Shown in pieces: positions 4,882 to 33,900 of a DNA stretch of 64,000 bases (position 1 is the first letter of the stretch; each line of letters opens with the position of its first letter). The stretch is from positions 16,140 to 80,139 of the forward strand of contig NZ_AOLK01000006.1 in the NCBI RefSeq assembly GCF_000336755.1. The letters are read 5' to 3'. The DNA comes from Haloferax elongans ATCC BAA-1513 (lineage in GTDB: Archaea; Halobacteriota; Halobacteria; Halobacteriales; Haloferacaceae). Position numbers and translations under genes: made by a program. The notes under the pieces were generated by a model. It had not been told where the DNA came from and did not search any database. It worked only from the letters and a program-made list of their open reading frames with translations.

Positions 4882-4903
4882 GACCCGATAGAGTCAGCAA
4901 TCC

Positions 4904-4912
4904 GTAAAATAC
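4904..4912 (-). promoter_or_regulatory. TATA-like element of the SNF2 helicase operon
   Basis: GTATTTTAC on the minus strand is centred about 27 bases before the helicase ATG at 4881, the spacing expected if transcription starts at or next to the start codon (leaderless mRNA, common in haloarchaea). Confidence 0.5.
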
Positions 4913-5040
4913 GTTTTGCGGTTATCTGGGTAATATCGGGTCGAAGTTCGAACTCCCCCTCAGTAGATGGTTGGAGAGTCGCTATTGAGAACATCGGTCA
5001 TTCAGCTATTCTCGGCTGAGAGGTACCAATGTTCCATAGT

Positions 5041-5048
5041 ATTTATTG
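5041..5048 (+). promoter_or_regulatory. TATA-like element of the DUF499 ATPase operon
   Basis: ATTTATTG lies about 35 bases before the ATG at 5079. It predicts a start of transcription near 5070 and a very short leader. Together with the opposite element at 4904-4912 it makes this 200-base gap a divergent promoter for the two halves of the system. Confidence 0.5.
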
Positions 5049-5078
5049 GGCCTTCCAGATGTCTGATAAAGTATCAAA

Positions 5079-8288: not shown

Positions 8289-8496
8289 GTCATACACGTA
8301 CCTAGCGTATGTGATATGGTCCTCTCGAACTAGTTCGTAGGAGAGGAAGCTTACTCTCATTCGCTGCTCCTGATTTGACTCCAAATGTAGCCTAGAATCG
8401 ACTTTTTGTCAAACTTCATAGTGAGGTGACTGTGCCGATGTTAGTCACCATGCGGCGCCACTAACCACCGTCTAAAGATCGGTTCGAGTAGGATCT

Positions 8497-9642: not shown

Positions 9643-9806
9643 ACGATTTGTCCATCCCTTGACTTCCACACTCGAAGACCGCCTGTATTGCTCCACAGAC
9701 CAATTGGTATGCCGTGTTTGAGGGAACTCCATCACGGAAACCGGATGCCTGTATAAAGAACGCACACTTATGGGGTTCCTGCATAATCGCATCTATATAC
9801 TGAATA

Positions 9807-15029: not shown

Positions 15030-15034
15030 CGAGG

Positions 15035-16180
15035 ATGGAGCTCGACGAACTGAGTAGTGAGGAAGTTCGTGATTACTACGACGAACTCGTTGAGCGCAAC
15101 TCGTTCCTAAGCGAGCTGAAGGGGGAACACGAGGACGAGCTACGGGAGGACGAAGATGCGGTGGAAGTGGCTCGAAAGGAGGTGAATTCGGAGATTGAAC
15201 GGGCGAAGAAGCACGACTCGATGCTTACGTCCACGATCTCCGCCTTCCTACCGGGGGGACAGATCGAACGGGAGACTGGATGGGTGTTCAGAGGTGCCGA
15301 GCCGCTCTCCGAGTACAACGAGTCGAACGCCGACGCGATATTCTGTAATCCGGAGCGAAACATCGCGCTCATAGTCGAATGTAAGACCAGCGTGTCCTCC
15401 CCCGGGAGCGCTCTCACCCAAATCTACGATGCCGCCGAGGCCGTCCGTCAGCACAGAGAGGAGCTCTCGGACCACATCGACATGGAGATCGACCAGTTGG
15501 AAACGGCGATCTGCGTTCCCAGCTACCACGACGAAGTCGTCGCCCGCCGAATCGAGGAAGAGGAGGAGAACGGAGACGCGGAAGAGCGGGTGTACCTCTG
15601 GCGCTTACACTACCTCCAAGAGACCGAGCGCCTGGACCTGTTCACCAGTTTCGCCAACCGAACGCGCTCAGAGGCGACTCACGACAGCGAGCTCTCGCAG
15701 GTTCTCAACTCGGGCGTCGAGATAACGAAACAACGGCAGGTCACGCCGTCGTTCTACCCCTCTTCGCACACGTTCCAGATTATGGAAGCCGCCTTTGGCC
15801 AGATCCTGAAGAGGCGTATCACGAACGACGGACCCCTACGCGAATTTTCCGAGGAGGAGCTCCGAGAGATACTCACGTCACAGAGACACCTCCCACACTA
15901 TTCGGCGGAGACGGTCGGCAATCGAATCCTGGGCGGCCTCACCGACCGCCTGATGTCGGATAACCTGGTCACCGAGATTGATTCCGAGGACGCGGAGCTC
16001 ACGGATGGTTCCGAGTACTACAGATATCGGGTCCGAGGGAGGTCTATCGAAACCGTGCTTAACAACCTGAAAGAGAAGTATCGACAGAGGGCCCTCGATA
16101 AGAAGCTGGAACTGCGAGCGATAGAGGCCGCGCTTCGGGAGTTCGATGAACAGCAGCGTTCGTTCGACGAGTTCTTCTGA
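15035..16180 (+). CDS. PD-(D/E)XK-like nuclease, third gene of operon
   Basis: A 381-residue protein. Residues ~90-115 hold NADAIFCNPERNIALIVECK: an Asp, then a hydrophobic strand ending in E-C-K. This is the D...(D/E)xK arrangement of PD-(D/E)XK restriction-type nucleases. A helix follows (SALTQIYDAAEAVRQH), as usual for the fold. The N-terminal ~80 residues are charged and helical; the C-terminal half is helical with a winged-helix-like stretch near the end (LGGLTDRLMSDNLVTEI). It follows the 355-residue gene after five bases. It ends nine bases before the McrC-like gene, which reads from the opposite strand. It is probably the DNA-cutting part of a three-protein system whose other members are unknown. 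Confidence 0.7.
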   Translation: MELDELSSEEVRDYYDELVERNSFLSELKGEHEDELREDEDAVEVARKEVNSEIERAKKHDSMLTSTISAFLPGGQIERETGWVFRGAEPLSEYNESNADAIFCNPERNIALIVECKTSVSSPGSALTQIYDAAEAVRQHREELSDHIDMEIDQLETAICVPSYHDEVVARRIEEEEENGDAEERVYLWRLHYLQETERLDLFTSFANRTRSEATHDSELSQVLNSGVEITKQRQVTPSFYPSSHTFQIMEAAFGQILKRRITNDGPLREFSEEELREILTSQRHLPHYSAETVGNRILGGLTDRLMSDNLVTEIDSEDAELTDGSEYYRYRVRGRSIETVLNNLKEKYRQRALDKKLELRAIEAALREFDEQQRSFDEFF

Positions 16181-16189
16181 CCGCCGCGG

Positions 16190-17950
16190 TTAGAGCAGCT
16201 TCAGCGGACCTTCCTTCTCCACCTTCCCATTCCCGTTCTGAAGGAAGTAGAGATCAATCCATTCCTGCCCGTGGTCTCGGCAGAACACGGGGACGCACGT
16301 CGTCGTGTGTTCGTACCGGCGGTCACACCGCGTCTCGATTTGCTCTCGGGTCCAATCGCCATCCTGCTCCAGATCGAAGCGATTGCGAACTTCCCAGGAG
16401 TGCTCGTCGGCGGCAGCCTTGACGACTCGCAGCGAGAAGTCACGCACGTCTTTGAACGTGAACGGACCGCTCATCGACTTCGCTTGCGACAGGTCTGATT
16501 CTGCGACGCCGTCGAGACAGAGCTTGTTCTCCGAGACGGCGCGGAACGCTTCGATTTCGGGCACTCGCTCGACGAGCACGTCGTGGAGGTACTCATGGAC
16601 GACGTCGTCGTAGCCGTCCAGTGAGAACTCGCCTTCCGGGGAGACGATCTGCAGCTCCGCGCCCGTCTGGGTTATTCGTCGACGCTTCGGTTCCAACAGG
16701 GGACAGAGGAACGCAAGTCGGTCCGCGTGCAGGAGGTACGCGTAGCTGAACAGCCGCGAACGGGACGACGACTCTTTGACCGGATCGTGCCCCTCGGCGT
16801 AGTACTTCGAATCGAGGACGGCTAGCGTCTCCTCACCCTCTTGGACCGCGTGGTCCGGCTGATGGTAGACCTCGTACTCGTCCTCAAAGGGGTTGACCGA
16901 CGGCGACCTGACAGGCGTGACGTCGGCCAACTCGTTCAGGTGGTCGTACGATTTGACACGGTTGAGCTCACGTTCGACGACGACCTGCGAGTACTGTTCG
17001 AACAGCGACTCCATATTCAACACATAGTCGACGACGAGTTCTCTCGGCCCTTCCCGAAGCTGCTGGCCGAGCGATGACGACATGACGGCTTTCGAGACGT
17101 CGAACGCCTTGCGGTAGTATCGCCGCTGCTTCGGGAGGTCGTGGAGTGTGAGTCGCCGGTACTCGTCCATTCGACCGAGACCGCTGCTCACGCCCATTCC
17201 CTCGAGCCGCTGCACCTCGCGGTGGACCTCCGAGAAGATTCGATCGTACGCTGGGTGCTCGTTCTCGTGCGAGTTCTGTTGGAAAAGCCGAAGGAGAGTC
17301 TTCCCCGCGTAATGAAGCAGGGAGTTCACCGCGTTGTCGTACTCCGTCTCGTTGCGGATCCAATTCGGCTCGATGGTTCCCCGGACGTGGTTCAGTAGGG
17401 TCTGCTCGACGTCGATATCGCCCCGTCCGTCTAGGCTGTCGATCCGCCTGATGACTAAGTCCCGAATGAAACCGTGGCGTTGGATAGTCTCCAGTCCATC
17501 CAGGTAGTTGATCGCCAGCACCACGAAGACGTCGTTGAGATGAACGTCGTCGGAGAGGAAGTCCCGCAATGGGATTCCGTGGTATTCGATGGAGCGGTTC
17601 TGGTCGTAGACGGCTAACAGCATATCGAAGATGTGCTCCCAGTCGATTTTTGGATCGACCTGCACCTTCGATGACGGCGTCAGACTGACGACGCCGATAA
17701 TGTCTGTCGCTTCGACGTGGAGTACCTCGTTCTCGTCCCCGTCGACGGTGACCGTCACCACTTCATACTCCCTATCGGAGTCAAGAGCTTCCTGGTGTTT
17801 GGTGAATACTCCTGGACTCTCCTGTGTGAACGATGCGCGACGAAGTTGGTCGCCGATGGTGGGAGGACATCCCTCTATACGGATCTCGCCCCGTTCCGGG
17901 ACGTTGAACGTGTCCTGCCCATACTGGTACACTTCGTCAACGCTGCTCAT
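16190..17950 (-). CDS. mcrC: McrC-like component of a McrBC-type restriction system
   Basis: A 586-residue McrC-family protein. The N-terminal half carries the beta-rich region expected of McrC (for example DIIGVVSLTPSSKVQVDPKI). In the C-terminal half QPDHAVQEGEETLAVLDSKY (~364-383) is the PD-(D/E)XK nuclease core, with the D and DSK catalytic residues. McrC proteins cut DNA when activated by GTP- or ATP-driven McrB partners that recognise modified DNA. The start codon at 17950 overlaps the last base of the McrB-like gene upstream, so the pair is translationally coupled. It is longer than E. coli McrC (~350 residues) but within the range of archaeal homologues. Confidence 0.85.
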   Translation of the reverse strand: MSSVDEVYQYGQDTFNVPERGEIRIEGCPPTIGDQLRRASFTQESPGVFTKHQEALDSDREYEVVTVTVDGDENEVLHVEATDIIGVVSLTPSSKVQVDPKIDWEHIFDMLLAVYDQNRSIEYHGIPLRDFLSDDVHLNDVFVVLAINYLDGLETIQRHGFIRDLVIRRIDSLDGRGDIDVEQTLLNHVRGTIEPNWIRNETEYDNAVNSLLHYAGKTLLRLFQQNSHENEHPAYDRIFSEVHREVQRLEGMGVSSGLGRMDEYRRLTLHDLPKQRRYYRKAFDVSKAVMSSSLGQQLREGPRELVVDYVLNMESLFEQYSQVVVERELNRVKSYDHLNELADVTPVRSPSVNPFEDEYEVYHQPDHAVQEGEETLAVLDSKYYAEGHDPVKESSSRSRLFSYAYLLHADRLAFLCPLLEPKRRRITQTGAELQIVSPEGEFSLDGYDDVVHEYLHDVLVERVPEIEAFRAVSENKLCLDGVAESDLSQAKSMSGPFTFKDVRDFSLRVVKAAADEHSWEVRNRFDLEQDGDWTREQIETRCDRRYEHTTTCVPVFCRDHGQEWIDLYFLQNGNGKVEKEGPLKLL

Positions 17951-19182
17951 TATTCGTACGAGCCCATCTGTCGTCGTTCTTGTTCGAGCTCACGCTCAGC
18001 CAACTCAGCTGCAGGCGAAAGGTCGAACTCCTCGAACTCCCCGTTCAACGCCCTGTAGTGTTCGGCGATGCGTTCGACCTGCGGGAACGCCGCAGAGTTG
18101 AGAAGTCGCGGGACGATGTAGGTTCGGAAAGCCTGTCCAACGGCGTCCGTCTGGTCGTATTCGTATTCGCCACCATCACGACACCCGACTCCGAGGAAGA
18201 CGGCAACGTCGCGGTAATGCATCGGGCCAAACCGCATGATTGCCCCTTGTGAGGTGGCTTCGTGACCGTGATTAATACCCTCGTAGTCGCGTTCGAAGAG
18301 CCGTAGAATTTCGTTCTCATCTAAATCCGTCTGGTCCGTCACATGGCTCGTAATCCAGTCTTTGAACAGTTGACGGCGTTTGTCTTCTTCGTACTCGTCA
18401 AGTTCGATCATCGCAAAGCGACGGGTGATTGCATTGTCAAGCTCGTTCACCGTCCGGTCAGACATGTTCATCGTGCAGATGATGTTTACCCGTTCGTCGA
18501 GTTCGATGGTTTCCCCCTCGTCGGTCTCGAAGATGGTCTGGTGGGGATTCTCTATTGCGGTGTAAAGGGGACCGAAAATCTTCGATATGTCTGCACGGGT
18601 AATCTCGTCGAGAATGACACCATACTCGACATCAAAACGCCGAGCGCGCTGGACTGCCTCTGAGACGCAGCCGAGCTTTGTCCGATAGCTCAGTGATTGC
18701 CCTGTGTAGTCCGGGCTAATCCCACCGATGATGTCTGATGGGGTCCACGAAGGTGTCGCCGTATTGAGTGCGTATCCGATTCCGGTTTCACGGGCCAGTT
18801 GCTTTGCAAACGTCGTTTTGCCTGTCCCAGTTGGTCCGTACAAGACGACCGGTTTACCGGCTTCGAGGGCAACTTTCGCGTTCCGTCGGACGTCACGTGG
18901 AACGAGGATTTCCTCAGGTGTTTCGTCACCGCGGAGGCTTACGACGCGTTTGAGTCGGTCAGATGCGAGCGTAGACTCGAGGACAGCACGTCGTACCCGT
19001 CCTAACCCCCGCTTGCCATCGTGGATTACGTCCAGCTTTTCTTCTTCAATTAGATACTCGAGGACTTCTTCATCAGCAGCAGTCCGAATTACTTCAACGA
19101 CATCGTCTGTTACGCGACGAAGTATTCCGATCTCATCTCTTGCGTCGTCAAGCGTGTAGCTATCATCAGACGAGTTATTCAT
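17950..19182 (-). CDS. mcrB: McrB-like AAA+ ATPase
   Basis: A 410-residue AAA+ protein of the McrB/MoxR type. Walker A is GPTGTGKT (116-123), Walker B is VILDEITRAD (189-198) and sensor I is ICTMNMSDRT (236-243), where the MN-x-x-D-R-S/T pattern is diagnostic of McrB relatives. The N-terminal ~100 residues are helical and would be the recognition domain; no EVE or other reader domain is evident. It is directly upstream of the McrC-like gene and probably forms the motor that activates it. Upstream, across a candidate promoter, lie the ORB boxes and the orc1 gene in the opposite orientation. Confidence 0.85.
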   Translation of the reverse strand: MNNSSDDSYTLDDARDEIGILRRVTDDVVEVIRTAADEEVLEYLIEEEKLDVIHDGKRGLGRVRRAVLESTLASDRLKRVVSLRGDETPEEILVPRDVRRNAKVALEAGKPVVLYGPTGTGKTTFAKQLARETGIGYALNTATPSWTPSDIIGGISPDYTGQSLSYRTKLGCVSEAVQRARRFDVEYGVILDEITRADISKIFGPLYTAIENPHQTIFETDEGETIELDERVNIICTMNMSDRTVNELDNAITRRFAMIELDEYEEDKRRQLFKDWITSHVTDQTDLDENEILRLFERDYEGINHGHEATSQGAIMRFGPMHYRDVAVFLGVGCRDGGEYEYDQTDAVGQAFRTYIVPRLLNSAAFPQVERIAEHYRALNGEFEEFDLSPAAELAERELEQERRQMGSYE

Positions 19183-19427: not shown

Positions 19428-19740
19428 ACTCAGAGAGGGAGGGGTGCGTCCAGTGTAACGAGCCACGTAGAAGCAACCCAGAAACATCGCCTCTGAGAGG
19501 GGGGTGCGTCCAGTGTACTCAACTGAACATCTCCGGCGCCCACACTCTAAAAGTGACTCCTTCTATTCGACTTCTCACGCAGTATTGTTCTGGTTTAACC
19601 GGCCGTCACTTAGTACTTTCCACGGGAATAGGCAGCGACTGTACCCTCTTCGACCTTCGAGAGAGTACATTGGACGCACCCCCCTCTCCCTCTATGCGAG
19701 AGCGAACTGTTTGTCAGTGGATGCACCCCTCTCTCTTTGG
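19428..19740. other. Candidate replication origin with four ORB-like boxes
   Basis: Four copies of a G-rich box share the core GGGGTGCGTCCA(G)TGTA or its complement. Two are on the plus strand (about 19428-19457 and 19491-19517). Two are on the minus strand (about 19666-19695, read as TACATTGGACGCACCCCCCT, and 19714-19740). Each core is flanked by a CTCTGAGAG-like G/A-rich arm. The two pairs point towards each other around a ~150-base interval with fewer G/C runs (19518-19665). Immediately downstream is the orc1/cdc6 gene. Inverted ORB pairs flanking an unwinding region next to a cognate orc1 is the standard layout of haloarchaeal origins. The boxes were found by eye; strand asymmetry and experimental use are untested. 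Confidence 0.75.
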
Positions 19741-19788
19741 CGTCACTGGACATGGGAGTTTTATGTAGTATCCAACGAGAAATCACCC

Positions 19789-21075
19789 ATGCGAGAGTTC
19801 GGCGAGGAGCAGACAATCTTCGACGATATGGACGTGTTGAACCCAAACAAGGGGTACCGTCCTCGTGAGCTTCCAGAGCGCGAGATGGAACTCGACGAAC
19901 TCCATAGTGCTCTCCGTCCCGCCACGTTAGGGTCAACGCCACTCAACGTATTCGTCTATGGTCCAACTGGGCAGGGAAAGACGGCCGCAATCAATCTCAA
20001 AACTCACCAACTACAGAGCTTCGCCGATGACCAGGGAATCGACGTCACTGTGGTGAACGTCAAATGCAAAGGGCTGGACAAGTCATACCATCTACTCACC
20101 CATCTGGTGAAAGAACTTCGAGGCCCCGGTGCTGAACTTCCGAAAGGACACCAGAAAAAGGCGCTCTTCCAGATGGTCACTACGGAGCTCCGCAGAATTG
20201 GTGGCACAATCATCGTGATTCTCGACGAGATCGACGCCATCGGTGACGATGACTACGTGCTCTACGAACTTCCCCGACTCGAGCTTGATGACGTCCGACT
20301 CTCTATCATCGGGATCACGAACGACCTGCAGTTCCGCGAGAATCTGAATGCAGACGTCCGCTCTTCACTCGGAGAAGACGAAATCGAGTTCTCACCCTAC
20401 AACGCTAACCAACTCCGCGCGATTCTCGCTCGCCGTGCAGCGAAGGGGCTCAAAAATACAGAGTTCGTCGAAAGGGCTGCTGAAAATTCCCGCCCTACTG
20501 TCTCGACCAACGGGATCGACGGCAAAGTCCTAGTCAGTGATGTACTCGAACCGGACGTCATCCCACTGGCAGCGGCTTTCGCGGCAGCTGATTCTGGGGA
20601 CGCACGCCAGGCAATCAAGCTGCTCTTCCGCGCCTGCCGACTCGCCGACGACGCCGGAGAGCAATCCGTGACGGAACAGCACGTTCGCGATGCACGCGAT
20701 TACATCGAACGGAGGGCCGTCGAACGGGGAATCCATTCCCTCCCAACACACGCGAAAATCGCACTCATGGCCGTAACGTACTACACAGTTCGCGACGACG
20801 TAACGTGGATAGAGACGAACAAGCTCTACGACTACCACAAACAGATCTGTGCTCAGTATGGCGTCGAGAGTCTTTCTGACCGGCGCTACCGAGAGAAGCT
20901 GAATAATCTCTCGCACTCGAACATCCTCAAGAAGAAGACCACTGGCCGGGGACAGGGCAAGGGCGTTACGAACCGCTATTCACTCGCTGTCGGCATCGAA
21001 ACCGCCATTGAGAATCTCCCCAGCTCCGAGGACAGACTTGGTGGGGGTGCTGACGTCATCCGCGATATGGCGTAG
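19789..21075 (+). CDS. orc1: Orc1/Cdc6 family replication initiator
   Basis: A 428-residue initiator. The start chosen is ATG 19789 (MREFGEEQTIFDDMDV), since the frame upstream runs through the ORB boxes and is not protein-like. Walker A is GPTGQGKT (58-65) and Walker B is VILDEID (143-149). The C-terminal ~80 residues (YYTVRDDVTWIETNKLYDYH, then a wing) form the winged-helix domain that binds origin boxes. The protein recognises ORB sites and opens the origin for MCM loading. It lies beside four matching boxes, so it is probably the initiator of this replicon. It is flanked on both sides by restriction systems. Confidence 0.92.
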   Translation: MREFGEEQTIFDDMDVLNPNKGYRPRELPEREMELDELHSALRPATLGSTPLNVFVYGPTGQGKTAAINLKTHQLQSFADDQGIDVTVVNVKCKGLDKSYHLLTHLVKELRGPGAELPKGHQKKALFQMVTTELRRIGGTIIVILDEIDAIGDDDYVLYELPRLELDDVRLSIIGITNDLQFRENLNADVRSSLGEDEIEFSPYNANQLRAILARRAAKGLKNTEFVERAAENSRPTVSTNGIDGKVLVSDVLEPDVIPLAAAFAAADSGDARQAIKLLFRACRLADDAGEQSVTEQHVRDARDYIERRAVERGIHSLPTHAKIALMAVTYYTVRDDVTWIETNKLYDYHKQICAQYGVESLSDRRYREKLNNLSHSNILKKKTTGRGQGKGVTNRYSLAVGIETAIENLPSSEDRLGGGADVIRDMA

Positions 21076-21348: not shown

Positions 21349-23982
21349 ATGAGTGAATCTGCTGTCGGGATTGAGTTCGAAGGGCTTGACAAATTGCTCG
21401 ATCGGTTCGTTGATGTGTGGAACGCGGGAGGGTTCGAAAAAGAGACTGACGCTTCTGTAGGGTGGGAAACGTGGAAGTGGGATTACCAAGAGCGGATTCA
21501 ATCAGAGTTCTTGGACGACCACGACATTACCCAGTTACAGCCAGATGAGGTCCCGGTGCTTGTGGACTGTCTCGACGAACAGGTGAGCATTGGCAATCAC
21601 ATTCCGGTGTATATGCTTGGTGGTGGGCAGAACGGTGGAGTTGCGTGGTCTGAGTTTAGGAAAATATCCGTTGAGAACCCTAAAGAGACCGCTAATACAC
21701 TTTCGTTCTTTTTCAACCCTGATGAGGCTCTTGAGGCACGACTGGAGACGTTCCAGTCATACTATGAAGAGATCACCTCATCACCCGGGTCGCTACTTGC
21801 GCTTGCAGGATGTTTACTGATGTTCGTTCACCCGCACCGGTATGTTCACTACAAGTACACGGAGATGAAGCATTTCTTCGACGAATTTGCAGGGTACAAA
21901 GTGAAACAAGGGTTCGGAGCTAGTGAATATCGGAAGCTGAACGACGCATGCCACGCAGTATTAGAGCGACTTGAGGGCCGAATTGATAACCCATCAATGC
22001 TGCATGTTCAGACCCTGATTTGGAGTTGCGGTGATCTACTGCCTACTGACGAAGAGGGGCAGAGCATGGGCGAAGAGTTGCCAGAAGTTGCTAGCGACAT
22101 TAACTATTATTGGGTGAACCAGACGCACAACGAGGAATTAGAGGGAGAGTACCTTCGGTCTAAAGATACGAAGTGGCAGCGGGATCTCACAGTGTTGGAG
22201 CCCGGTGATGTTGTGTTCCACTACGCGAACCAGGAAATAAGAGCATGCTCTGTCGTTGAGGGTGAAGCGTATCAAGAACAGTTTGACGATGGCCAGCATT
22301 ACTTCGTTGACCTCTCAACTGTGAAGTTTGCCGACCCGGTACCGTTGGATGAGGTTCGAGACGGGTTGCTGGATTCGAACGTCCGGCAAGAGAAGACGAG
22401 GTACCCGTTGAACAAGGATGGGGACGTAATTCAGGCGTATCTGTGTCACTTGACACCAGAAGCAGGTTCATATTTACAGGACACAGCAGGGATTGCGCTA
22501 CCAGAACTCGAAGAGGGACCACAATATTTCTGGGTGAATGCAGCGGCGACTGATTGGCATCGGGAGGGCGGTGAGTCGTTCTACCAGGTGAATGGTCCCA
22601 CAGGAAAATCGCGTCGTAATCAGCCTGCCTACAGGAATGCGAGGCCGGGTGACAAAGTGCTGGTGTATCAGGTTTCGCCAGCAAAGCAGGTGGTTGGGCG
22701 AGCGAGCGTGGAGCGTGGGTTACACGAGGAACCTGCGAATGGGAGTGACAATGAGACTGTTGAAGGAATCACGCTTCGGTGGGATGAGTCACTGGATGGA
22801 GTACAGTGGGGTGACGTGGAGTCTGATCCGGAGTTGGATTCGAGTCGTCTTGTTGAGTCAGATAATAGCTTCGTGATCACGGAGCTGACTCAGGAAGAGT
22901 ATGAACGGATCTTAGAGTTAGGTGAGCTTTCCCACTTCGAGGATTTCGATGCGAGCTTATCGGTTTCTGAATCCGAAATTACGGTTGAACGCGGGCGGTT
23001 GTACTTCCCGGATGGTGAGTGGGACCAGATTCAGTCGCGGGTTGAGCAGGCGTTGTCGAATGGGAATCACGTGTTGTTGTTCGGGCCGCCAGGGACAGGG
23101 AAGACGAAGTTGGCGCGGCAAGTGTGCGAATCAACGGTTGGTCAGGATTCGCACGAGCTTGTGACGGCGTCGGCTGACTGGTCTACGTTCGATACGGTCG
23201 GCGGGTATCAAACGACTTCACAGAACACGCTCGAGTTCAAACCGGGTATCGTGCTGGACCGGTTCCAGAAGGACGACGCGGGTACGCCGGCGAACGAGTG
23301 GTTGATCATTGATGAGCTGAACCGTGCGGATATTGACAAGGCGTTCGGGTCGTTATTCTCAGCGTTGACTGGTGAGAGCGTCACGCTCCCGTTCGACGGG
23401 TCTGACGGTGACCCGATCGAGATTCTCGATGCGTCCCAGGGCCACGAAGAAGTGAGTCCTGATAAGTTCTACATTTCTGAGGATTGGCGGATGCTGGCGA
23501 CGATGAACACGCTCGATAAGACGTCGTTGTACGAGATGAGTTACGCGTTCATGCGGCGCTGGGCGTTCGTTCCAGTGGGGATTCCTGAACTGCCGGAGCG
23601 TGACGGGGATGATGACTCTGAGTTGGAAGCGCTCGTTGCTGATTACGTTGCTGTGTGGGCGGTAGACGGGTCGGTTCCGGAAGCTGCACAGCACTTCGAG
23701 CCGGTCGGGCGGATTTGGCGTGCAGTGAATGAAGAGCGAGCAATCGGACCGGCGATTGTTGAGGACATTTACGAGTACGTCGCCGACGCGTCTTCCGTAG
23801 CGACTGCGGATTACGTGTCGCCGATCATCATGTACGTGTTCCCGCAGTTGGAAGGCTTGCGTCGAAACGAGTTGGAGCGTCTTATTCAGCGGCTTGACTC
23901 GATTGTTGATGACGACGCGGGTGAGCTGTGGACGGTTGCGCGTGACTTCTTCCAAGTTGATTTGCAACCGCCTCAGGAGTGA
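21349..23982 (+). CDS. Tandem EVE-domain McrB-like AAA+ ATPase
   Basis: An 877-residue fusion. Residues 1-245 are a helical N-terminal domain of unknown type. Two EVE (PUA/YTH-like) domains follow: YYWVNQTHNEELEGE begins the first at ~252 and YFWVNAAATDWHREGGESFY the second at ~393. Each starts with the (Y/F)W-V-N strand and contains a later GD-x-V/K-x-x-Y block (PGDVVFHYANQE; PGDKVLVYQVSP). EVE domains bind modified bases by flipping them into an aromatic pocket. The C-terminal AAA+ module has Walker A GPPGTGKT (579-586), Walker B IIDELNR (653-659) and the McrB sensor MLATMNTLDKTS. The protein should therefore detect modified DNA and drive the nuclease encoded next to it. Confidence 0.88.
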   Translation: MSESAVGIEFEGLDKLLDRFVDVWNAGGFEKETDASVGWETWKWDYQERIQSEFLDDHDITQLQPDEVPVLVDCLDEQVSIGNHIPVYMLGGGQNGGVAWSEFRKISVENPKETANTLSFFFNPDEALEARLETFQSYYEEITSSPGSLLALAGCLLMFVHPHRYVHYKYTEMKHFFDEFAGYKVKQGFGASEYRKLNDACHAVLERLEGRIDNPSMLHVQTLIWSCGDLLPTDEEGQSMGEELPEVASDINYYWVNQTHNEELEGEYLRSKDTKWQRDLTVLEPGDVVFHYANQEIRACSVVEGEAYQEQFDDGQHYFVDLSTVKFADPVPLDEVRDGLLDSNVRQEKTRYPLNKDGDVIQAYLCHLTPEAGSYLQDTAGIALPELEEGPQYFWVNAAATDWHREGGESFYQVNGPTGKSRRNQPAYRNARPGDKVLVYQVSPAKQVVGRASVERGLHEEPANGSDNETVEGITLRWDESLDGVQWGDVESDPELDSSRLVESDNSFVITELTQEEYERILELGELSHFEDFDASLSVSESEITVERGRLYFPDGEWDQIQSRVEQALSNGNHVLLFGPPGTGKTKLARQVCESTVGQDSHELVTASADWSTFDTVGGYQTTSQNTLEFKPGIVLDRFQKDDAGTPANEWLIIDELNRADIDKAFGSLFSALTGESVTLPFDGSDGDPIEILDASQGHEEVSPDKFYISEDWRMLATMNTLDKTSLYEMSYAFMRRWAFVPVGIPELPERDGDDDSELEALVADYVAVWAVDGSVPEAAQHFEPVGRIWRAVNEERAIGPAIVEDIYEYVADASSVATADYVSPIIMYVFPQLEGLRRNELERLIQRLDSIVDDDAGELWTVARDFFQVDLQPPQE

Positions 23983-23988
23983 TCACGC

Positions 23989-25383
23989 GTGGGTAAGACG
24001 ACTGAAGAGGCGTTGTTGGACGCGATAGCGCCTGATTTCCACACGTATCTCCGGAAAGGCGTCCGGCTCGACCGCGTGATCGACTCAGCGCACTCAGAAT
24101 TGAATGTGGACGATATCGAGACGCTGCTCCGCATTCACTTCGTGTTGACTGACGCGGAAGACGACGGCGGGACTGTCGGCGTGTTAGATTTCATGCGGCA
24201 GTTAGAGTCGCGTATCCGGCGGATGAAGACGACGACTTCTCCGAGGTCGTTCGAGCATCGCGGTGAGATTCGCGGGCAGATTGACTGGCAAGGGACGGTG
24301 AAGACACGAGCTCGTGCTGGCCGGTTAGAGGAACCAGTGTTCGTTTGCACGCAACCGGAAGAGCACTACAATATCGATGAGAATCTCGTGTTGAAGCGGC
24401 TACTAACGGTTATTCATGACATCGTGACGAATGACCTCGCTTACGCGCTCGAAAACCCGGCAGGGTACGACTGGCTTGACGGGTGGGTGACCTCGGACGC
24501 TGGCGGTGACGGTAATGGTGGTGAGTCTGCAGCGGAAATGCTTGACCGGGTGTACGAGCAAAACATCTACTTGCAACGCGTGAACGTCGCTGACGCGGAA
24601 ATCACAGATCGAACTATCGAGTCTGTGAAACGTTCGCGGTCACGGTTCTATCAAGATGCGGCGGTACTGCTAGATAGGTATCGGCAGTTGATGAACTACG
24701 AGCTGGATAGTGTTGAAGCGCGAGACATCCTGGACCACACGCTCATCGCGCCCGACAAAACTGACACGTTGTTCGAGTTGTACTGGGTGTTCCGCGTGCT
24801 TGCTGCGTACGAGGACGTGGAGTACCGCGTGTTGACCGATGCTCGGGATAGTCCGTCTACGATTGCGACGTGGGAACAAGACGGATCAAGGTTCGTGTTG
24901 TCGCACGATGCGACAGGCGATAGTCTCACGTTCAACGAGTCGGCGGGCTCGGATGCGATTGAACCAGACGGGTACTTGTACCGGATGAACGAGGTGCTTT
25001 CAAGGTGGCAGTCGCTTTCTCAGGAGTTCCTCGGACGCGGCGGGAGTGACTCGTTGTGGGGTGGACGGCCAGATATCGTGTTAGAGCGGTACGATACCTC
25101 TGACGTGGGAGAATGGGAACTTGCGCAAGTGTTCGTCGGGGAAGTGAAATACACGCAGAATATTGATTACGTCGCAACGGGACTCCGCGAATTACTGGAA
25201 TACATGGCGTTCGTTAAAGACGCAACAACCAAGGAGTACGTTGAAACCGTGGACGACTTGTTAGAGTCCGTCGCTGTCAAGGGCTTGTTGTTCGTCGATG
25301 ACTTGGGCCGAGAAATAGGCGGTGTTGATAACGAGGGAGTCGAAATCTTACAGTACCCGGAATCACCAGATTCCGTGTTGTAG
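23989..25383 (+). CDS. McrC-like PD-(D/E)XK nuclease partner
   Basis: A 464-residue protein starting at GTG 23989, six bases after the EVE-McrB stop. Near the C-terminus GRPDIVLERYD (~362-372) followed by FVGEVKYTQN (~384-393) gives the PD and ExK residues of a PD-(D/E)XK nuclease, with a helix (LRELLEYMAFV) after it. The N-terminal half is helical and matches the general layout of McrC/DUF2357-type partners rather than classic E. coli McrC. With its upstream neighbour it should form a modification-dependent restriction system that cuts DNA carrying the base seen by the EVE domains. It converges on the pentapeptide-repeat gene with a gap of 10 bases. Confidence 0.82.
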   Translation: MGKTTEEALLDAIAPDFHTYLRKGVRLDRVIDSAHSELNVDDIETLLRIHFVLTDAEDDGGTVGVLDFMRQLESRIRRMKTTTSPRSFEHRGEIRGQIDWQGTVKTRARAGRLEEPVFVCTQPEEHYNIDENLVLKRLLTVIHDIVTNDLAYALENPAGYDWLDGWVTSDAGGDGNGGESAAEMLDRVYEQNIYLQRVNVADAEITDRTIESVKRSRSRFYQDAAVLLDRYRQLMNYELDSVEARDILDHTLIAPDKTDTLFELYWVFRVLAAYEDVEYRVLTDARDSPSTIATWEQDGSRFVLSHDATGDSLTFNESAGSDAIEPDGYLYRMNEVLSRWQSLSQEFLGRGGSDSLWGGRPDIVLERYDTSDVGEWELAQVFVGEVKYTQNIDYVATGLRELLEYMAFVKDATTKEYVETVDDLLESVAVKGLLFVDDLGREIGGVDNEGVEILQYPESPDSVL

Positions 25384-25393
25384 TTGACTGACG

Positions 25394-27466
25394 TTACGAA
25401 CCAGACAGTCGTGCGATTCCAACGAGGGCTGGGAGCGCATCTCGACTGTATTTCGAGCTCGCTTCGCCTTGTTCGAGGAGTGTTTGTTCGAGAAGTTGCC
25501 GGCGAAACAGTGCTTTCCGGTATTCCATGTGTGAACCGACAGATGCGCCTGATTCGAATGCATCATCGTGTATGGATACAGTGATGAAGTGATCGATATC
25601 GCTGAGCTCCGGGTTCAGGTAGCTGAATGTGAACTCGGTTTCATCTGCATCGGTCGTGTACGCTCCGACAAGCGTCGCGGCGCTGAGAAATGATGCTGGG
25701 TCGTCACCGTCTTTGTTGAGTGTCAAGCCGAACACGACCTCAGCGTGTGACCCACGGTCAACGTTGAGTTCTGAGACGGCTGTACGCGCGAGTTCGACAC
25801 TCCGCTTGAATCGACTGTACCAGTCTGGTTGGTCCAACCCGTTCAACACGGCTGTGACAACCTTAGCACGGGAGACCGGGACTTGCAACAAGTTCGTTGC
25901 TTCGGCAGGAATGATAATGTCACCATTCATCGCTTCAACTGGGACTGTGAACCCGGAATTACGCAGGTCTTCAGGCCGCGCAACAATCAGATTCCGACGA
26001 CTCTCCGAGAGGTTCATTGAACTGGATTGCGGGTAGTTCGCGGCTTCGAAATCTGGGTTCACAGCGAAGCGAGCATCGTCAAACGTCGGTTCGACTAAGA
26101 ACTCAGCGTCGTCGAATGTGACTCGTTGTTTGAATCGGCAGTCGCTGAAGTCCGGTCCACCAGCGAAGGACGCAGTGTCGAACCATGCTCGCCCGCCGAA
26201 TTCGCTGTTACTGAATATTCCTCGACCATCGAATCTTGAGCCACGGAAATCAGTGTCGCCGTGAACAGTAGCGGAGAACTGGAAGTGGTCGAATGTTGCG
26301 TCTGTCGCGTCAACGCCCCCTTGAATCGTCGAGCCGTGCAGGAATGATTGATGTTCGAACTCGACATCTGCGAGAGACAGGTCGTCGTTGAACGTTGAGT
26401 CGCGGAGATGGATGAAGTTCTCTGCACGCGAACCAGATAGGTTGACCGAGTCGTTGAAAATTGCGTGCGTGAACCATGCCTCGTCGAGAAACGACGTGTT
26501 CGTGAGGGAGACGACGCCGTCGAATTCAGACAGCGAGAAGGAAGTATGCCCGTTGAACGTGGCTTCGTCTGCTTGTGTGCGCGGACCAGTGCATCGCAGA
26601 TCCTCAAAGTCAGCGTCGCCGTCGAACGTGGTTTGTGAGGCGTTCAGAACCCCATCGACAACTGCGTGGCAGAAGCTTGCATCATCAGAAACAGTGCACT
26701 TCGACAAGTCAATCCCGTCTTCGAGTGCGGCTGAATTGAGTCGGAACTCTCCACCGATAGTAGCTCGGTGGAATGTCGCGGTGCCGGTTATTCGTGTTGA
26801 TGCGAAGTCCGCAAGGAGTCGCCAGTTGGCGTTGGCGAAAGAGACATTACCGTCGAACGTTGTCCGAGAAAACCGCGTGTTTGCGTTGAATGATGCGTGT
26901 TGAAAGGTTGTTGCGCCGTGAACCGTGAGACCGCGAGCGTCAACGAAGCCTGCGCTGAGATTGTTCGCTGCGATGCCGCCGTTAATGATTGTGTCGTGGA
27001 AGTTGAGCTTGCCGCCGATATCTGCTCCAGCGAGACTCAGTGGTGCGTCGAACTGCGCACCCTTGGCGTCTAGTGCGCCAGTGATTGCTGCGTTCCCGAT
27101 TAATAACGGGACCTTGATCGTTGCATCGCGTAGGTTGAGAGTCCCATCAATTGTCGCTCCGCGAAGATCAATCGGTGAGCCGTCCGGCGTTGCCAGTACG
27201 CGACCTGAGAGATCCAACTTACCGATACGACCCCCGGCAAAGACTGCTGGGCGATCAGGTGAATTGACTGCATCCAGGAGCGCAGAACTGATAGCATCGG
27301 GTGGGAATTCTCGTTCAGCGCTATGGAATAAGCACCGTTCATCATTACCTTCCCCTGCGGTGTGCGGGCAGTGCGACGGCTCGACTCGTGGTAATGGGAC
27401 CTCGCTGGATGGTTCTGTATGGCTGAGCGTCTCGTATGTGTATGAACAGGTTGAACGTGATGTCAT
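25394..27466 (-). CDS. Pentapeptide-repeat (right-handed beta-helix) protein with N-terminal metal site
   Basis: A 690-residue protein. The N-terminal ~50 residues contain C, then HCPHTAGEGNDERCLFH, a Cys/His cluster that could bind zinc. Residues ~80-450 are pentapeptide-like repeats, with Phe or Leu in the central place every five residues (FDGNVSFANANW; FDDAEFLVEPTFDDARF), which should fold as a four-sided right-handed beta-helix. Proteins of this shape can mimic DNA. The last ~200 residues are a separate alpha/beta domain of unknown type. A small gene precedes it on the same strand with a 46-base gap. It sits between the EVE-McrBC pair and the AddAB-like operon, so a defence role is plausible but unproven. 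Confidence 0.8.
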   Translation of the reverse strand: MTSRSTCSYTYETLSHTEPSSEVPLPRVEPSHCPHTAGEGNDERCLFHSAEREFPPDAISSALLDAVNSPDRPAVFAGGRIGKLDLSGRVLATPDGSPIDLRGATIDGTLNLRDATIKVPLLIGNAAITGALDAKGAQFDAPLSLAGADIGGKLNFHDTIINGGIAANNLSAGFVDARGLTVHGATTFQHASFNANTRFSRTTFDGNVSFANANWRLLADFASTRITGTATFHRATIGGEFRLNSAALEDGIDLSKCTVSDDASFCHAVVDGVLNASQTTFDGDADFEDLRCTGPRTQADEATFNGHTSFSLSEFDGVVSLTNTSFLDEAWFTHAIFNDSVNLSGSRAENFIHLRDSTFNDDLSLADVEFEHQSFLHGSTIQGGVDATDATFDHFQFSATVHGDTDFRGSRFDGRGIFSNSEFGGRAWFDTASFAGGPDFSDCRFKQRVTFDDAEFLVEPTFDDARFAVNPDFEAANYPQSSSMNLSESRRNLIVARPEDLRNSGFTVPVEAMNGDIIIPAEATNLLQVPVSRAKVVTAVLNGLDQPDWYSRFKRSVELARTAVSELNVDRGSHAEVVFGLTLNKDGDDPASFLSAATLVGAYTTDADETEFTFSYLNPELSDIDHFITVSIHDDAFESGASVGSHMEYRKALFRRQLLEQTLLEQGEASSKYSRDALPALVGIARLSGS

Positions 27467-27954: not shown

Positions 27955-30015
27955 ATGAGTGAGTTAACGCCCCGCTCGTTTGACGGGCTGCTGGTAACGA
28001 CGTCGTTCGGCTCGTTAAACGTGGAAAAAGCTGCGCGCGAAGAGTACAAGGCGCTCCTCGAAACACATGATACAGAAGATGTTCTTGTCGTGACTGGTGC
28101 ACCGACGAGCATGGAGGCGTTTCGTGAAACGTTGAACGCGGAACTTCCTGGTGCAGCCATACCGCGTGTGACGTCGCCGGTTGTTCACGCGACTGATGTT
28201 CTCAACCAGAGTGACGAACGGGTTATCTTGTCTGACGCGTTACGGCGTGAACTGCTTCACCGGTTTCTTTCGGAGTACGAGTGGGAGACAGAGTACCTGC
28301 AGCGCGCTGCCGCGCAACCGTCGTTCATCCAGGACGTGGAACAAGTGATGAGCACGCTCTCGTGGCAGGGAGTCACGCCTGACGAGACGCCGGAACTCCG
28401 CGATATCGCGGGGGCGCTTGATGCGTTCCACGAGCACCTCGCTGAACACGATCATATGGAGCGCGGGCAACTGATTTCGGAGGCGCTTGCTGTCTTGACT
28501 GGTGAGGCTCGCGGTGACGTCGTCGATTTCGACGCTGTACTCGCCGTGGAGTTCGAGGAGTTCTACCCGCTTGATCGGGCGTACTTGGAAGCGCTCGCTT
28601 CTGATTGTGAACTTGTGTGCGTTGCCGAGGAGCACGCGAGTGTTCGTCGAACGTGGATCGAGGCAGGGCCGGTTACTGAGTACGTATCGTTCAGTGAGAC
28701 GCGGCGCGTAGACACCGTGACGCCCTCGACGCGACCGGCAGCAACGGCAGCGTTCCTCGCTGAAGAGTCGCGTCAGGAAGATCCGGAGGAAGGGTCAGTG
28801 TCCGTTCTCGATTCAGCGTCTCGGAACGACCAACTCGCGGATGTCGCCAATCGAATCGAGGAACTTGTCGCTAAGCCGGGGTGGAATCACGATGACATTG
28901 CGGTGGCGACGAAGCAAAGCGGGTCGGGCGTTATTGACGTGATCGAAGCGTTCGAGCAGACTGGCATCCCGACGGAATCAACGACCGTAACCGGGTTCGG
29001 TGATGACCCGGCGATTCGAGAGTTGCTTGCTGTTGTTCGGTATTTTGCAGTTGACGAGGCGACTGAGGCCCAGCGAGAACACGGCCCTGCACTCGATACG
29101 GACCGGTTAGATCGGCTCAGCAGTATGGACGGGCTTGCAGACCCCTTGCGTTTGTGGGCGACAGAATCCGGGTTGAAAGAACGGATTGCTGACCGGGCGT
29201 CGGCGCTTGATGCTCGTGCACAGTTCGGGAACGTTCGTCGTGCGTTCCGCATGGCGGCATTCCTCGAAGACACGGCGTTCTTGGACGCGACGTGGGAGTC
29301 GTTCGAAACAATGCTTGAACGCGCTCACGAGTACGCGCCGCAGGTTAATCAGACGAGTGCGACGGACCTTGACGGCGGTGTTCGGGTTGACCACGTGCAA
29401 GCGATTAAAAACGAGTCGTTCCGTGCAGTGTTCCTCGTGAATCTCATTGACAGTGAGTATCCGGGGACGCCATCATTGACTCGGTTGTTCCCGGCTGAAC
29501 GCGTTGCTTCGATGCCGGATTACCCGGGTGTGACGGATCTCGATGAAGGTAGCGTTGAGGCGACGTTCCCGACTGATTCGACCGCATCAAGCCGCGCCTT
29601 CGCCCAGTATCACGCAGAACACGCTAGACGGCGACTCAGTATAGGGGCCCGTGCCGCAACTGACCGGTTGTACTGTTGCTTGTACGAGTTCGAAGACACG
29701 GCGCTCGAAGAACGAACGCACGCCTCACGGTTCTTAACAGCCGCGTACGAGGACCTTTCGTGGGTCACGGAAGCCGAAGACACTCTCATTACGAGTGAAC
29801 GCGCGGCTGAAGAGCACCTGTTATCACGGGTGGATGACGCGCTTGCCGACGTGCGACGTGTGCAGAGCCAAGACGTGACCGTGTCCCTGGATGACGTAGA
29901 AGCGGATATCGGTGAGATTCAGGCACTTCTCGACCGGAGCGGTGTTCGTGGTGAGGAACTCCGGAAGGCGTTACGGGCGCGCGTTGAGCTGGCGAACGGG
30001 GAGGTGCGGAGATGA
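27955..30015 (+). CDS. AddB/RecC-like inactivated helicase subunit
   Basis: A 686-residue protein. The expected Walker A region near the N-terminus (LLVTTSFGSLNVEKA) lacks the GxGK(T/S) loop, so ATP hydrolysis is unlikely. The C-terminal part has VDHVQAIKNESFRAVFLVNL followed by D-S-E-Y-P, which matches the motif V/VI region of AddB and UvrD-like helicases. This fits an AddB- or RecC-like structural subunit that reads DNA but does not power unwinding. Its stop overlaps the start of the Cas4-like nuclease gene by four bases (ATGA), and that gene in turn overlaps the AddA-like helicase. The three therefore look like one complex, with AddB split into helicase-like and nuclease proteins. Confidence 0.7.
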   Translation: MSELTPRSFDGLLVTTSFGSLNVEKAAREEYKALLETHDTEDVLVVTGAPTSMEAFRETLNAELPGAAIPRVTSPVVHATDVLNQSDERVILSDALRRELLHRFLSEYEWETEYLQRAAAQPSFIQDVEQVMSTLSWQGVTPDETPELRDIAGALDAFHEHLAEHDHMERGQLISEALAVLTGEARGDVVDFDAVLAVEFEEFYPLDRAYLEALASDCELVCVAEEHASVRRTWIEAGPVTEYVSFSETRRVDTVTPSTRPAATAAFLAEESRQEDPEEGSVSVLDSASRNDQLADVANRIEELVAKPGWNHDDIAVATKQSGSGVIDVIEAFEQTGIPTESTTVTGFGDDPAIRELLAVVRYFAVDEATEAQREHGPALDTDRLDRLSSMDGLADPLRLWATESGLKERIADRASALDARAQFGNVRRAFRMAAFLEDTAFLDATWESFETMLERAHEYAPQVNQTSATDLDGGVRVDHVQAIKNESFRAVFLVNLIDSEYPGTPSLTRLFPAERVASMPDYPGVTDLDEGSVEATFPTDSTASSRAFAQYHAEHARRRLSIGARAATDRLYCCLYEFEDTALEERTHASRFLTAAYEDLSWVTEAEDTLITSERAAEEHLLSRVDDALADVRRVQSQDVTVSLDDVEADIGEIQALLDRSGVRGEELRKALRARVELANGEVRR

Positions 30016-30917
30016 GCCGTGCATCGTTGTCACCGTCGCGCTTGGCGATGTACGCGACGTGCCCGCGGCAGTACGATTACGGGTACGCACAGGATGTCAA
30101 CGCACCGGATCGCACTGAACTGTACTTGAATCAAGGCACGATTTATCACGCGACGATCGAAGCGGTGTGTGACGCGACTGACGTTGACGACGACGCAGAT
30201 GTGATTCACGACCGGGCGCTACGTATGTTCGCTGAGACGTGGGAGGACCACTGCAACCCAGCCGACTACGCATCCGATGCACATCAGGTGTACCAGCGCG
30301 CTGAGAACCGCGCCGGGGTTAACGCGTTCTTCGACCCGGACGGCGGAACTGGGATTGACCACGCTCGACACTCTATTGCAACGGAAGTGTGGGTGGAGTG
30401 CGAACGTGATGGTCGCGGTCTTCACGGGAAGGTCGATAACGTCTTGCGAACGGACGACGGGTTGCACGTCATTGACTACAAGCGGAACACGCACGGCATG
30501 CTGTCGTCACGGACCGCAGAATACCTGGACGGCCATCTCGCTGGAGAGGCCCACGAACCGGAACGCGTGAAGAACGCGTTCCAGACGGCGACGTACGTCG
30601 AGGGCGTGAAGAACGAGTCGTTCTACGAGGACGGGATGGATACCCGGTTCAGTTTCTACGGGCTTCTCAACAACACTTCGTTCGAGAGTACGCCGTCGGG
30701 GTACGATGTCTCTGCACGCGGATGGTCACGGGAGACAACTGAGATTTACGAAGAACACTACGACACGATTTGGGCGTTGATTCGAGACGCTCACGACGGT
30801 ATAACGAGTGAAGCGTACGAACCGGTTCCGTTCGCGCTGATTAGTGAAGAGGCATGTTCGGGGTGTGAGTACGCGGAAATGTGTGCTGACCGCCTGGCAG
30901 AGGAGGTTCGACGATGA
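30012..30917 (+). CDS. Cas4/AddB-type PD-(D/E)XK nuclease with iron-sulfur cysteines
   Basis: A 301-residue nuclease. CPRQYDY near residue 17 and CSGCEYAEMC near the end give the one-plus-three cysteine pattern (C ... CxxCxxxxxC) that holds a 4Fe-4S cluster in AddB, Cas4 and Dna2. Between them are GTIYHATIE (motif I His), KVDNVLRTDDGLHVIDYKRN (Asp, then D-Y-K) and FQTATYV (the Q/Y motif). It should cut single-stranded DNA ends. The ATGA overlaps on both sides show coupling to the AddB-like gene before and the AddA-like gene after. In bacteria the same domain is the C-terminus of AddB; here it is a separate protein. Confidence 0.88.
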   Translation: MSRASLSPSRLAMYATCPRQYDYGYAQDVNAPDRTELYLNQGTIYHATIEAVCDATDVDDDADVIHDRALRMFAETWEDHCNPADYASDAHQVYQRAENRAGVNAFFDPDGGTGIDHARHSIATEVWVECERDGRGLHGKVDNVLRTDDGLHVIDYKRNTHGMLSSRTAEYLDGHLAGEAHEPERVKNAFQTATYVEGVKNESFYEDGMDTRFSFYGLLNNTSFESTPSGYDVSARGWSRETTEIYEEHYDTIWALIRDAHDGITSEAYEPVPFALISEEACSGCEYAEMCADRLAEEVRR

Positions 30918-33900
30918 GCGATTCTGAATACCCGTCGTGGTTCCCCGTCCCTGAAGAAGACGTGACGCCGCAACCGCAGCAAGGGTCAATTATCGACTCG
31001 TCCGCGTACCCGATGCGTGTACTCGCCGGCGCAGGGACTGGGAAAACGTTCACAATGGTACGGAAAGTCGAGCGGCTCATCGACGAGGAAGACGTGTCGC
31101 CAGACAGGATCCTCGCGTTGACGTTCACGAACAACGCGGCGGACTCGATGCGTGAGAAACTGAACGCAAAACTCGGCGCAGCGGGATACGACATTGATGC
31201 GTACACGTACCACTCGATTTGCAACGAGATACTCACCGATTACGCGTACGAAGCAGGCCTCGATCCGGACTTCGACGTGGCGACGGACGCTGAAAAATAT
31301 GCGATCGTGCTGGACGTCCTCGACGAAATCGAATACCGGTTCGTTAAGCCGAACGTGTACGGGAGCGACGGGTACGCGTCAGGCGCAGCGTCGAAGCTAT
31401 TGAACTTCATCGGGTCGATGAAACGTAGCGGGATCACGCCAGACGACATCGACACGTTCCTCGGACCAGCCGAACGCGTGTACGGCCTCGCTGACCTGTC
31501 TGAACGGATTGAAGACATCGCTAGTGACCACCTTGGCGGCCGGTCTGTTTCGACGGTGCTTGATGCACTCCCTGCAGTGCGCTCAGACCTTACCGATGAG
31601 CGCGACGCGCTGGGAACAGACGGCATCGAAGCCAGTGCACGGGACTTCGTTGAGCGCCTCATCGACCTCATCGAGGCATTCGAAACCGCTTTCGAAGCCC
31701 ACGAGACTGGTGAGCGAGAACTTCCAGACAACGCGTACAAACTCCCGAAATATCTGCTCGGCGGGTACGCGAGCGGAGCCCCGACCGGGATTCCTGACGA
31801 CCTTGACCTCGAACTCACAGAACACCTCGACTCGTTCGTCAGTGACTGTCTCACCGCTCGTGATTTAAATGCGGGTTACGCCGCGTACGAACGCGAACTC
31901 TCCGAACGGAACCTTATTGACTTCGACGGGTTAGTCGTCGAGGCCGCCGGGTTGATGGACTCACCGGTCGGCGAGGAAATCGCGTCGCGGTGGGATTACG
32001 TGTTCTGTGACGAGTTCCAGGACACGGATCGTCTCCAGTTCGATCTCGTCACATCGCTCGTCACTGATGATAACCTGTTTGTCGTCGGTGACGACGACCA
32101 AGCGATCTACGAGTGGCGCGGCGCGCACGTAGCCAACATCACTGACGAGCTCGACGCCGCGTTCGACGCGCTTACTGACGAGCCGTTAGAGGAGAATTTC
32201 CGGTCGCATCAACCGATTCTCGACTTGGCGAACGAAGCCATCACGAAGCTCGACGAGCGAGAGCGGCACAAGACCCTGCATCGAGTCAACGAACCGGCGT
32301 ACGACGGCGACACAGTTGCCACAGTCGAACTTCCAGATGACGACAGCGACACGGACGGTGCAGCGCAACTCCGAACCGTTGTACAGAACCTGTTGTCCGG
32401 AGGCGCTGCGAATCTCGACACTGCGTATGACCCGGGAGACATCGCGCTTCTCGTCCGGAAAAACAAGCATGCAACACCTGTCCTCGAAGCTTTCGAGGAC
32501 GCTGGAATCCCGTACCAAGTCGCCGGTGACCTCGCTACGGAGTCAGTTGGTGTTGGCACTGTCACTGCCTACCTGAAAGCCCTGGCGCGAACGGAAGACG
32601 AAGTTAGTTGGAACCGCATCTTGATGATGCGATACCGGTTGTGCGACGCAGACCTTCGCACACTCAACGCTGGCGACGACCCCCTCGTCGAGACGCTGTG
32701 CGACGCCCCGCTTGACGAGTTTGATGAACCAGGCCGCATCTCAGAGGCACGCGACCACGTCACCGAACTCCTCGAAGCTCGTGACGCTGCGTCGCTCAGG
32801 CACTTGTACCGTGAACTCAAAGATATCACGAACATTGAGTGGTACCTCAGCGAGCAGGAGCGCCGCGATCTCGCGCAACTCGACGACATCGTTGAGCAGT
32901 ACGGCGACAGCGCCGTGCAACCGCCGCTTAATCCGGAGTTCATAGATTCACTCGAACACTACGACTCGCTGTTCGACGAAAGCGGGGCCGCGCCAACAAG
33001 CCAGCCAGACGTAGCTACCGACGCGGTTAACATCATGACTATCCACAAAAGCAAGGGCCTAGACTTCCCCGTCGTTCTCATCCCACAAGTCACAGCCGAC
33101 GAGTGGGCACCGAGCTCACGCGCGTACGATGCGCTCGAAACCGGGCTCACCGACGGTTCAGCGGAAGTGTTCGACGAAGACTACGTCACGCGTGATGCCC
33201 GCGAAACGCGCCGCGTGTTCCATGTCGGGATTACGCGCGCCGAAGACATCCTCGTTCTACAAGGCAAGAGCGACAGAGACGACACTGACGAAGAAGAAGA
33301 CCTGATTTCGAACGCAGTCCGTGAGATACTACCTGCTCGGATTCCGTGGCAACCTGGACGCAGCCACCTCCCAATCTGGACTGACGTGCGAGAATGCCTC
33401 TCAGATAACGCGGCTGACTGGACCGACACGCTCGCTAAGGAGACCATCGGGAATGTCGGTGGCTCAGTCAGACACAACGGGAGCGAACTCACGGTTCAGG
33501 CTGCGCGCGACCGGGTGATAGACCTCGCAACGATGTCGACCAGCGGGGAAATCGAAACGATAAGCGGAAACTCACGGCTCAACGTCAAGTCACTGTCTGG
33601 CCCGTCGAAACCATCCCCCTCACTCTCACACAGTTACACGTCACTTGCATCGTACGAGGAATGCCCGCGTAGCCATTACCTCGATTACGTCGTCAACGCC
33701 TTCCGGGACTATCACGACACGGGCAACACCACTGGCGGGGACGTATCACAACGCGACATCGGGTTGCTGTTTCATGACGTTGCAGAGCAAGCCGCGAACA
33801 AGAACGCCCCACGTCGGGAGGAATGGTACGAGATCGGTGAACGACTTGCTAGTCACCAGCGAGCTGAGGACGCCCTCCCTGCAGTTAAAGAGTGCATCGA

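Follow-up and report, generated by a model that had tools for sequence, protein, structure and literature searches.

Fusions of an EVE domain to McrB are the commonest EVE-containing defence fusion (PMC7641849). In these type IV restriction systems, the EVE domain lies upstream of an McrB GTPase with the NxxD signature, and the gene adjoins one for McrC (PMC7641849, PMC11090510). The McrB sensor is instead a DUF3578 domain in E. coli K-12 McrBC (6hz4, 6ut6) and a single YTH domain for N6-methyladenine in the Thermococcus gammatolerans system (6ut5) (PMC7641849). VcaM4I, an EVE-HNH nuclease dependent on 5-methylcytosine (5mC) or 5-hydroxymethylcytosine, holds the flipped base between Tyr130 and a wall of Trp82 and Pro24, hydrogen-bonds its N4 group through Glu15, and fills the gap in the helix with Gln128; the E15A and Y130A mutations clearly impair activity in vitro (6yex; PMC7897488). 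Here, we analyse a 64,000-nucleotide stretch of DNA from Haloferax elongans ATCC BAA-1513 (the window), which lies on an 81-kb contig (NZ_AOLK01000006.1) of a 3.95-Mb genome and encodes an McrB-like protein with two EVE domains, EVE1 and EVE2, next to a divergent McrC-like protein. The locus is a variant of known EVE-McrB defence, not a new system: it has the gene and domain order of the described fusions and differs from them in that one chain carries two EVEs of different families. Probably, its product is a modification-dependent (type IV) restriction system of the McrBC kind whose McrB carries two sensors, with the EVE domains serving mainly as independent, exchangeable readers.

Both genes lie on the plus strand as an operon, and their open reading frames match exactly the coordinates of a preliminary description of this DNA: the McrB-like protein (877 residues) is encoded at 21349-23982 and, after a gap of 6 bp, the McrC-like protein (464 residues, GTG start) at 23989-25383. 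That description had read the first protein as a chain of a helical N-terminal domain, two EVE domains, and an AAA+ motor; profiles, folds, and motor motifs support this outline, and the pair is a candidate EVE-McrB type IV restriction system with two genuine EVE folds. Pfam finds an AAA_5 motor and a single EVE domain (residues 422-524) in the 877-residue protein, and phmmer connects it to E. coli McrB (6hz4, E=7e-11). An AlphaFold2 model of residues 1-545, with a mean pLDDT (predicted local confidence) of 84.6, contains an all-helical first domain followed by two separate beta-rich domains. The helical domain (residues 1-233; 21349-22047) matches no Pfam family but is recognized by profile in eight relatives. 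Profile matches, together with Foldseek matches of the model, identify both beta-rich domains as real EVE folds.

EVE1 (residues 249-378; 22093-22482) is almost invisible to the Pfam EVE family: when 20 EVE1 members were scanned singly against PF01878, one matched, at E=0.02. A profile built from these 20 members (A2) aligned end to end with the VcaM4I EVE domain (6yex, E=1.4e-8) and gave no other significant match, and VcaM4I was also the best Protein Data Bank match of the 1-545 model in Foldseek (E=1.7e-9). Further Foldseek matches were the classic EVE structures 2gbs, 1zce, and 2ar1, THYN1 bound to 5mC DNA, and YTH domains. In the alignment, Glu263 (22135-22137) takes the place of VcaM4I Glu15, and Gln362 and Tyr364 of the Gln-Ala-Tyr segment at residues 362-364 (22432-22440) take those of the intercalating Gln128 and the stacking Tyr130. 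The Glu15 and Tyr130 equivalents are present in all EVE1 sequences aligned and the Gln128 equivalent in most. EVE1 thus appears to retain the cytosine-contacting side of the pocket and to have lost one wall, which makes a modified cytosine the best guess for its ligand and leaves the substituent unfixed. Most likely, EVE1 is a VcaM4I-type domain that would flip a 5-modified cytosine out of the helix; the system as a whole differs from VcaM4I in having no HNH nuclease.

EVE2 (residues 391-524; 22519-22920) matches PF01878 with 30.7 bits (cut-off 23), and its profile (A3) matches the classic EVE structures 1zce (E=3.4e-6), 2ar1, 2gbs, and 2eve. It falls in a clade, E2a, apart from a second haloarchaeal clade, E2b, and by profile and clade belongs to the classic EVE branch, to whose structures, THYN1 with 5mC DNA among them, it is also linked by fold. 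EVE1 and EVE2 are only remotely related: BLASTP gave only a spurious 33-residue alignment, their profiles align poorly with each other (hhalign 41%, E=2.8e-4), and each has a different nearest solved structure. We therefore reject a recent duplication of one EVE in favour of a heterotypic pair drawn, as judged from these comparisons, from different EVE families. Both domains are under purifying selection, with dN/dS ratios (nonsynonymous to synonymous substitution rates) of 0.06-0.15, near that of the motor.

The motor (residues 549-868; 22993-23952) aligns with E. coli McrB and retains Walker A (GPPGTGKT, residues 579-586; 23083-23106), Walker B (IIDE, residues 653-656; 23305-23316), and the McrB signature NxxD as Asn720-Thr-Leu-Asp723 (NTLD; 23506-23517), the counterpart of MNTAD in the E. 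coli protein (motif definition, PMC11090510). These motifs place the protein in the McrB clade and predict an intact GTPase. No other full-length relative is encoded in the same genome, where the sole second match is the neighbouring EVE-less McrB described below.

The partner protein has Pro361-Asp362 (25069-25074) and Glu385-x-Lys387 (25141-25149) of a PD-(D/E)xK site, as the preliminary description had noted, and these residues are invariant in 35 partner sequences. The same description found the partner unlike classic McrC, which holds for sequence and fails for fold. None of the 35 partners matches the Pfam McrC models PF10117, PF04411, or PF09823 at E<=0.1, and no sequence similarity to the neighbouring second McrC was detected. 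In Foldseek searches with an AlphaFold2 model of the partner (pLDDT 80), however, ranks 1, 2, 3, and 5 were McrC chains of E. coli and T. gammatolerans (E=8.5e-7 to 0.03; top matches 6hz4_M, 6ut6_G, and 6ut7_G). The partner also adjoins McrB in 36 of 36 loci. The idea that it is not an McrC was rejected on fold, McrB neighbourhood, and active site; by its modelled fold it is an McrC, with predicted cleavage activity. The locus resembles E. coli McrBC in its GTPase motifs and in an McrC fold with a PD-(D/E)xK site, whereas its sensors are EVE domains and its McrC is too divergent for Pfam. With the T. gammatolerans system it shares an archaeal origin and a PUA-superfamily sensor on McrB, with two EVEs in place of the one YTH domain.

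Relatives of the McrB-like protein, among them proteins of Halorussus, Natribaculum, Halovenus, Halobellus, and Natronosalvus, suggest that sensor domains have been shuffled among McrBs. Our sample of 36 loci consists of the window and 35 best-match retrievals and is biased accordingly. At least two EVE domains occur in 28 of the 36, so a special status of the tandem arrangement finds no support; it is common in haloarchaea as far as these sequences indicate. By EVE content, 20 loci have EVE1 and EVE2 (with ~200 residues between them in four), seven have E2a and E2b, one (L056) has three EVEs in the order EVE1, E2b, E2a, five have one EVE, and three have none of these types. L054 has the same N-terminal domain, EVE2, motor, and McrC as the window without EVE1; L053, L049, and L055 keep EVE2, motor, and McrC and have exchanged the N-terminal domain and EVE1 for ~540 residues of other sequence; and L057, as well as L100, which came from a second search, carries EVE1 without EVE2 on the same motor and McrC family. 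In L048 (9001-11652), the N-terminal domain is 85-88% identical to those of L050 and L046 and the motor 91% identical to that of L050, whereas EVE1 is 42-43% identical to EVE1 of L050 and L046 and 76% identical to that of L064. Judged by these identities, the EVE1 cassette of L048 has been swapped relative to its nearest relatives; an in-frame TAA within EVE2 means that this gene may be inactive. Raised synonymous divergence in the EVE cassettes was dropped as a general sign of exchange, being found in two of seven pairs and reversed in one. Of 391 Halobacteria genomes, 48 encode an EVE1, and a VcaM4I-like EVE1 is also found on McrB in another archaeal family (L104, L105), where L104 retains both Trp82 and Pro24. 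A search for viral contigs encoding a relative of the McrB-like protein found none.

The same motor and McrC family thus come in a natural series with EVE1 only, EVE2 only, both, or a swapped EVE1, which makes the sufficiency of one sensor, and what each reads, directly testable. To our knowledge, no EVE domain on an McrB has a proven ligand. In the mechanism that we propose, EVE1 and EVE2 would each read a modified base in a different way from within a single chain, and either could hold an McrB ring, presumably loaded as a hexamer, on foreign DNA. By analogy with E. coli McrBC, GTP hydrolysis would then drive translocation, and McrC would cut through its PD-(D/E)xK site. As mainly independent, exchangeable cassettes, the two sensors would let the system recognise more kinds of modified DNA from viruses or plasmids. 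Targets exist, since tailed viruses of haloarchaea carry genes for methyltransferases of the C5, N4, and N6 types and for 7-deazaguanine pathways (PMC8651126).

Would both EVE domains have to be occupied? An AND gate, in which the two must bind modified bases (the same or different) at once, would raise specificity, and it fits the retention of both domains under purifying selection in full-length orthologues at 65-73% identity and their adjacency across a short linker. The same motor and McrC family occur without one EVE in L054, L057, and L100, however, and EVE order and identity vary (E1-E2, E2a-E2b, E1-E2b-E2a, and 200-residue inserts). We regard obligate double reading as unlikely and, because single-EVE relatives and a swapped EVE1 exist, favour independent sensors (OR logic) on the strength of these comparisons. 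The preliminary description had taken two EVEs to imply the reading of two modifications, either at once or of different kinds; membership in different families makes a distinct readout for each domain likelier than one readout present twice, and simultaneous two-base reading finds no support in the EVE2-only and EVE1-only loci. It is also improbable, in our estimate, that only one domain reads and the other, most likely EVE2, is a structural or non-specific DNA-binding spacer or clamp beside the motor. The classic R-x-S positions are lost in EVE2, and EVE2 is retained where the N-terminal domain and EVE1 have been replaced (L053, L049, L055), but its dN/dS is 0.13-0.14, 58 of its 142 positions are invariant in six orthologues, and it is the sole EVE of L054. 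An RNA-directed or regulatory McrBC, akin to CoCoNuTs, with EVE/YTH-like domains that read modified RNA, is very improbable: CoCoNuTs use YTH-like domains (PMC11090510) and YTH-RNA structures are also among the Foldseek matches, but no coiled-coil, OB, HEPN, or Hsp70 domain appears among the Pfam matches of McrB, McrC, or their neighbours, and the best EVE1 match is a reader of DNA modification.

Several results weigh against the reading of independent sensors for modified DNA, or against parts of it. EVE1 lacks the pocket wall of VcaM4I, as the Trp82 loop is shortened and Pro24 is replaced by lysine (Thr11 is missing as well), and its ligand may therefore differ from that of VcaM4I; the altered wall also suggests specificity changes that could be read. 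EVE2 deviates from the R-x-S positions of classic EVEs near its C-terminus. Relative to the classic aromatic pocket (Trp26 and Tyr82 of 2eve), its Tyr82 loop is shortened, and two alignments place the Trp26 position differently. The preliminary description had let its reading depend on fold and pocket residues in both copies: both folds are present, and EVE1 has the Glu15, Gln128, and Tyr130 equivalents without those of Trp82 and Pro24. TM-scores between the partner and McrC are low (0.2-0.29), and the McrC assignment accordingly leans on Foldseek rank, E-value, neighbourhood, and active site. On the supporting side stands an exploratory comparison, uncorrected for phylogeny, of C5-cytosine methyltransferases (PF00145) across the 391 Halobacteria genomes. 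Among genomes that encode a close McrB, 41 of 121 (34%) have such an enzyme, versus 141 of 270 others (52%, p=0.001); the enzymes occur in four of 22 genomes with a window-like EVE1, at a cut-off picked after seeing the data, versus 178 of 369 others (p=0.007); in the window's own genome, none was found at E<=1e-15. Fewer such enzymes are what self-avoidance by a 5mC-directed system would give, but the depletion is also seen in relatives without EVE1 (p=0.03).

A literature search of partial coverage, which included PMC7641849 and PMC11090510, found no description of a tandem or double EVE McrB. More tentatively, we raise the possibility, which we hold with limited confidence, that haloarchaeal McrBs draw on a combinatorial, evolving sensor set: up to three EVEs per protein (at least one), from no fewer than three types (EVE1, E2a, E2b), together with other PUA-like and helical cassettes, all exchanged by recombination. 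With its single motor, the window protein would then respond to two DNA modifications of different chemistry, and EVE2 (E2a) would recognise one that no EVE domain is known to read, such as a hypermodification of haloviruses.

The N-terminal regions of L038, L044, and L053 contain, by eye, further PUA/EVE-like stretches ('WQVxPG', 'FILQTGSDxW') without a Pfam name, so that the sensors of some McrBs may number three to four. Separate proteins of ~460 residues also contain the N-terminal helical domain (L077, L079, L084, L086, L089, L094), where it is preceded by a second helical stretch that resembles, by eye, the N-terminus of the McrBs L045, L056, and L065.

A second McrBC pair lies 2.2 kb from the first, on the minus strand and divergent from it (16190-19182), in agreement with an EVE-less pair placed about 2 kb away by the preliminary description. 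Its McrB-like GTPase (410 residues; 17950-19182) matches AAA_5 and the McrB profile and neither the EVE1 nor the EVE2 profile, and its McrC (586 residues; 16190-17950) matches PF10117 with 40.1 bits (cut-off 23.9). Several McrBC pairs per island are likewise a feature of the systems in PMC11090510. Between the two pairs lies an Orc1/Cdc6-type gene on the plus strand (19504-21075; TIGR02928, E=4.6e-99), and a phage-type integrase gene (34405-35688) is also found among the defence genes of the window, which suggests a mobile or plasmid-derived island.

Genes for an SNF2 helicase, DUF499, and a DUF1156/COG1743 methyltransferase (1980-12479) match the archaeal SNF2-COG1743-DUF499 restriction-like system with stand-alone EVE proteins described by Bell et al. 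2020 (PMC7641849); no stand-alone EVE protein was found within the window. Two uncharacterised genes without a Pfam match (13962-16180) adjoin the second McrBC pair, and the 381-residue product of one contains a D...ECK stretch resembling a PD-(D/E)xK nuclease. On the other side, a gene for a 690-residue pentapeptide-repeat protein (25394-27466) converges on McrC. It is followed at 27955-34366 by three genes, for a 686-residue protein without a Pfam match, a PDDEXK_1 nuclease, and a UvrD-PDDEXK fusion, and L046 and L048 have this three-gene set next to their McrBC genes as well. Members of a single gene family (PDDEXK_4 in L046, 13060-14583) lie near the pair in seven relatives, mostly converging directly on McrC, and a Piwi-family gene is found further along in L047, L050, and L051.

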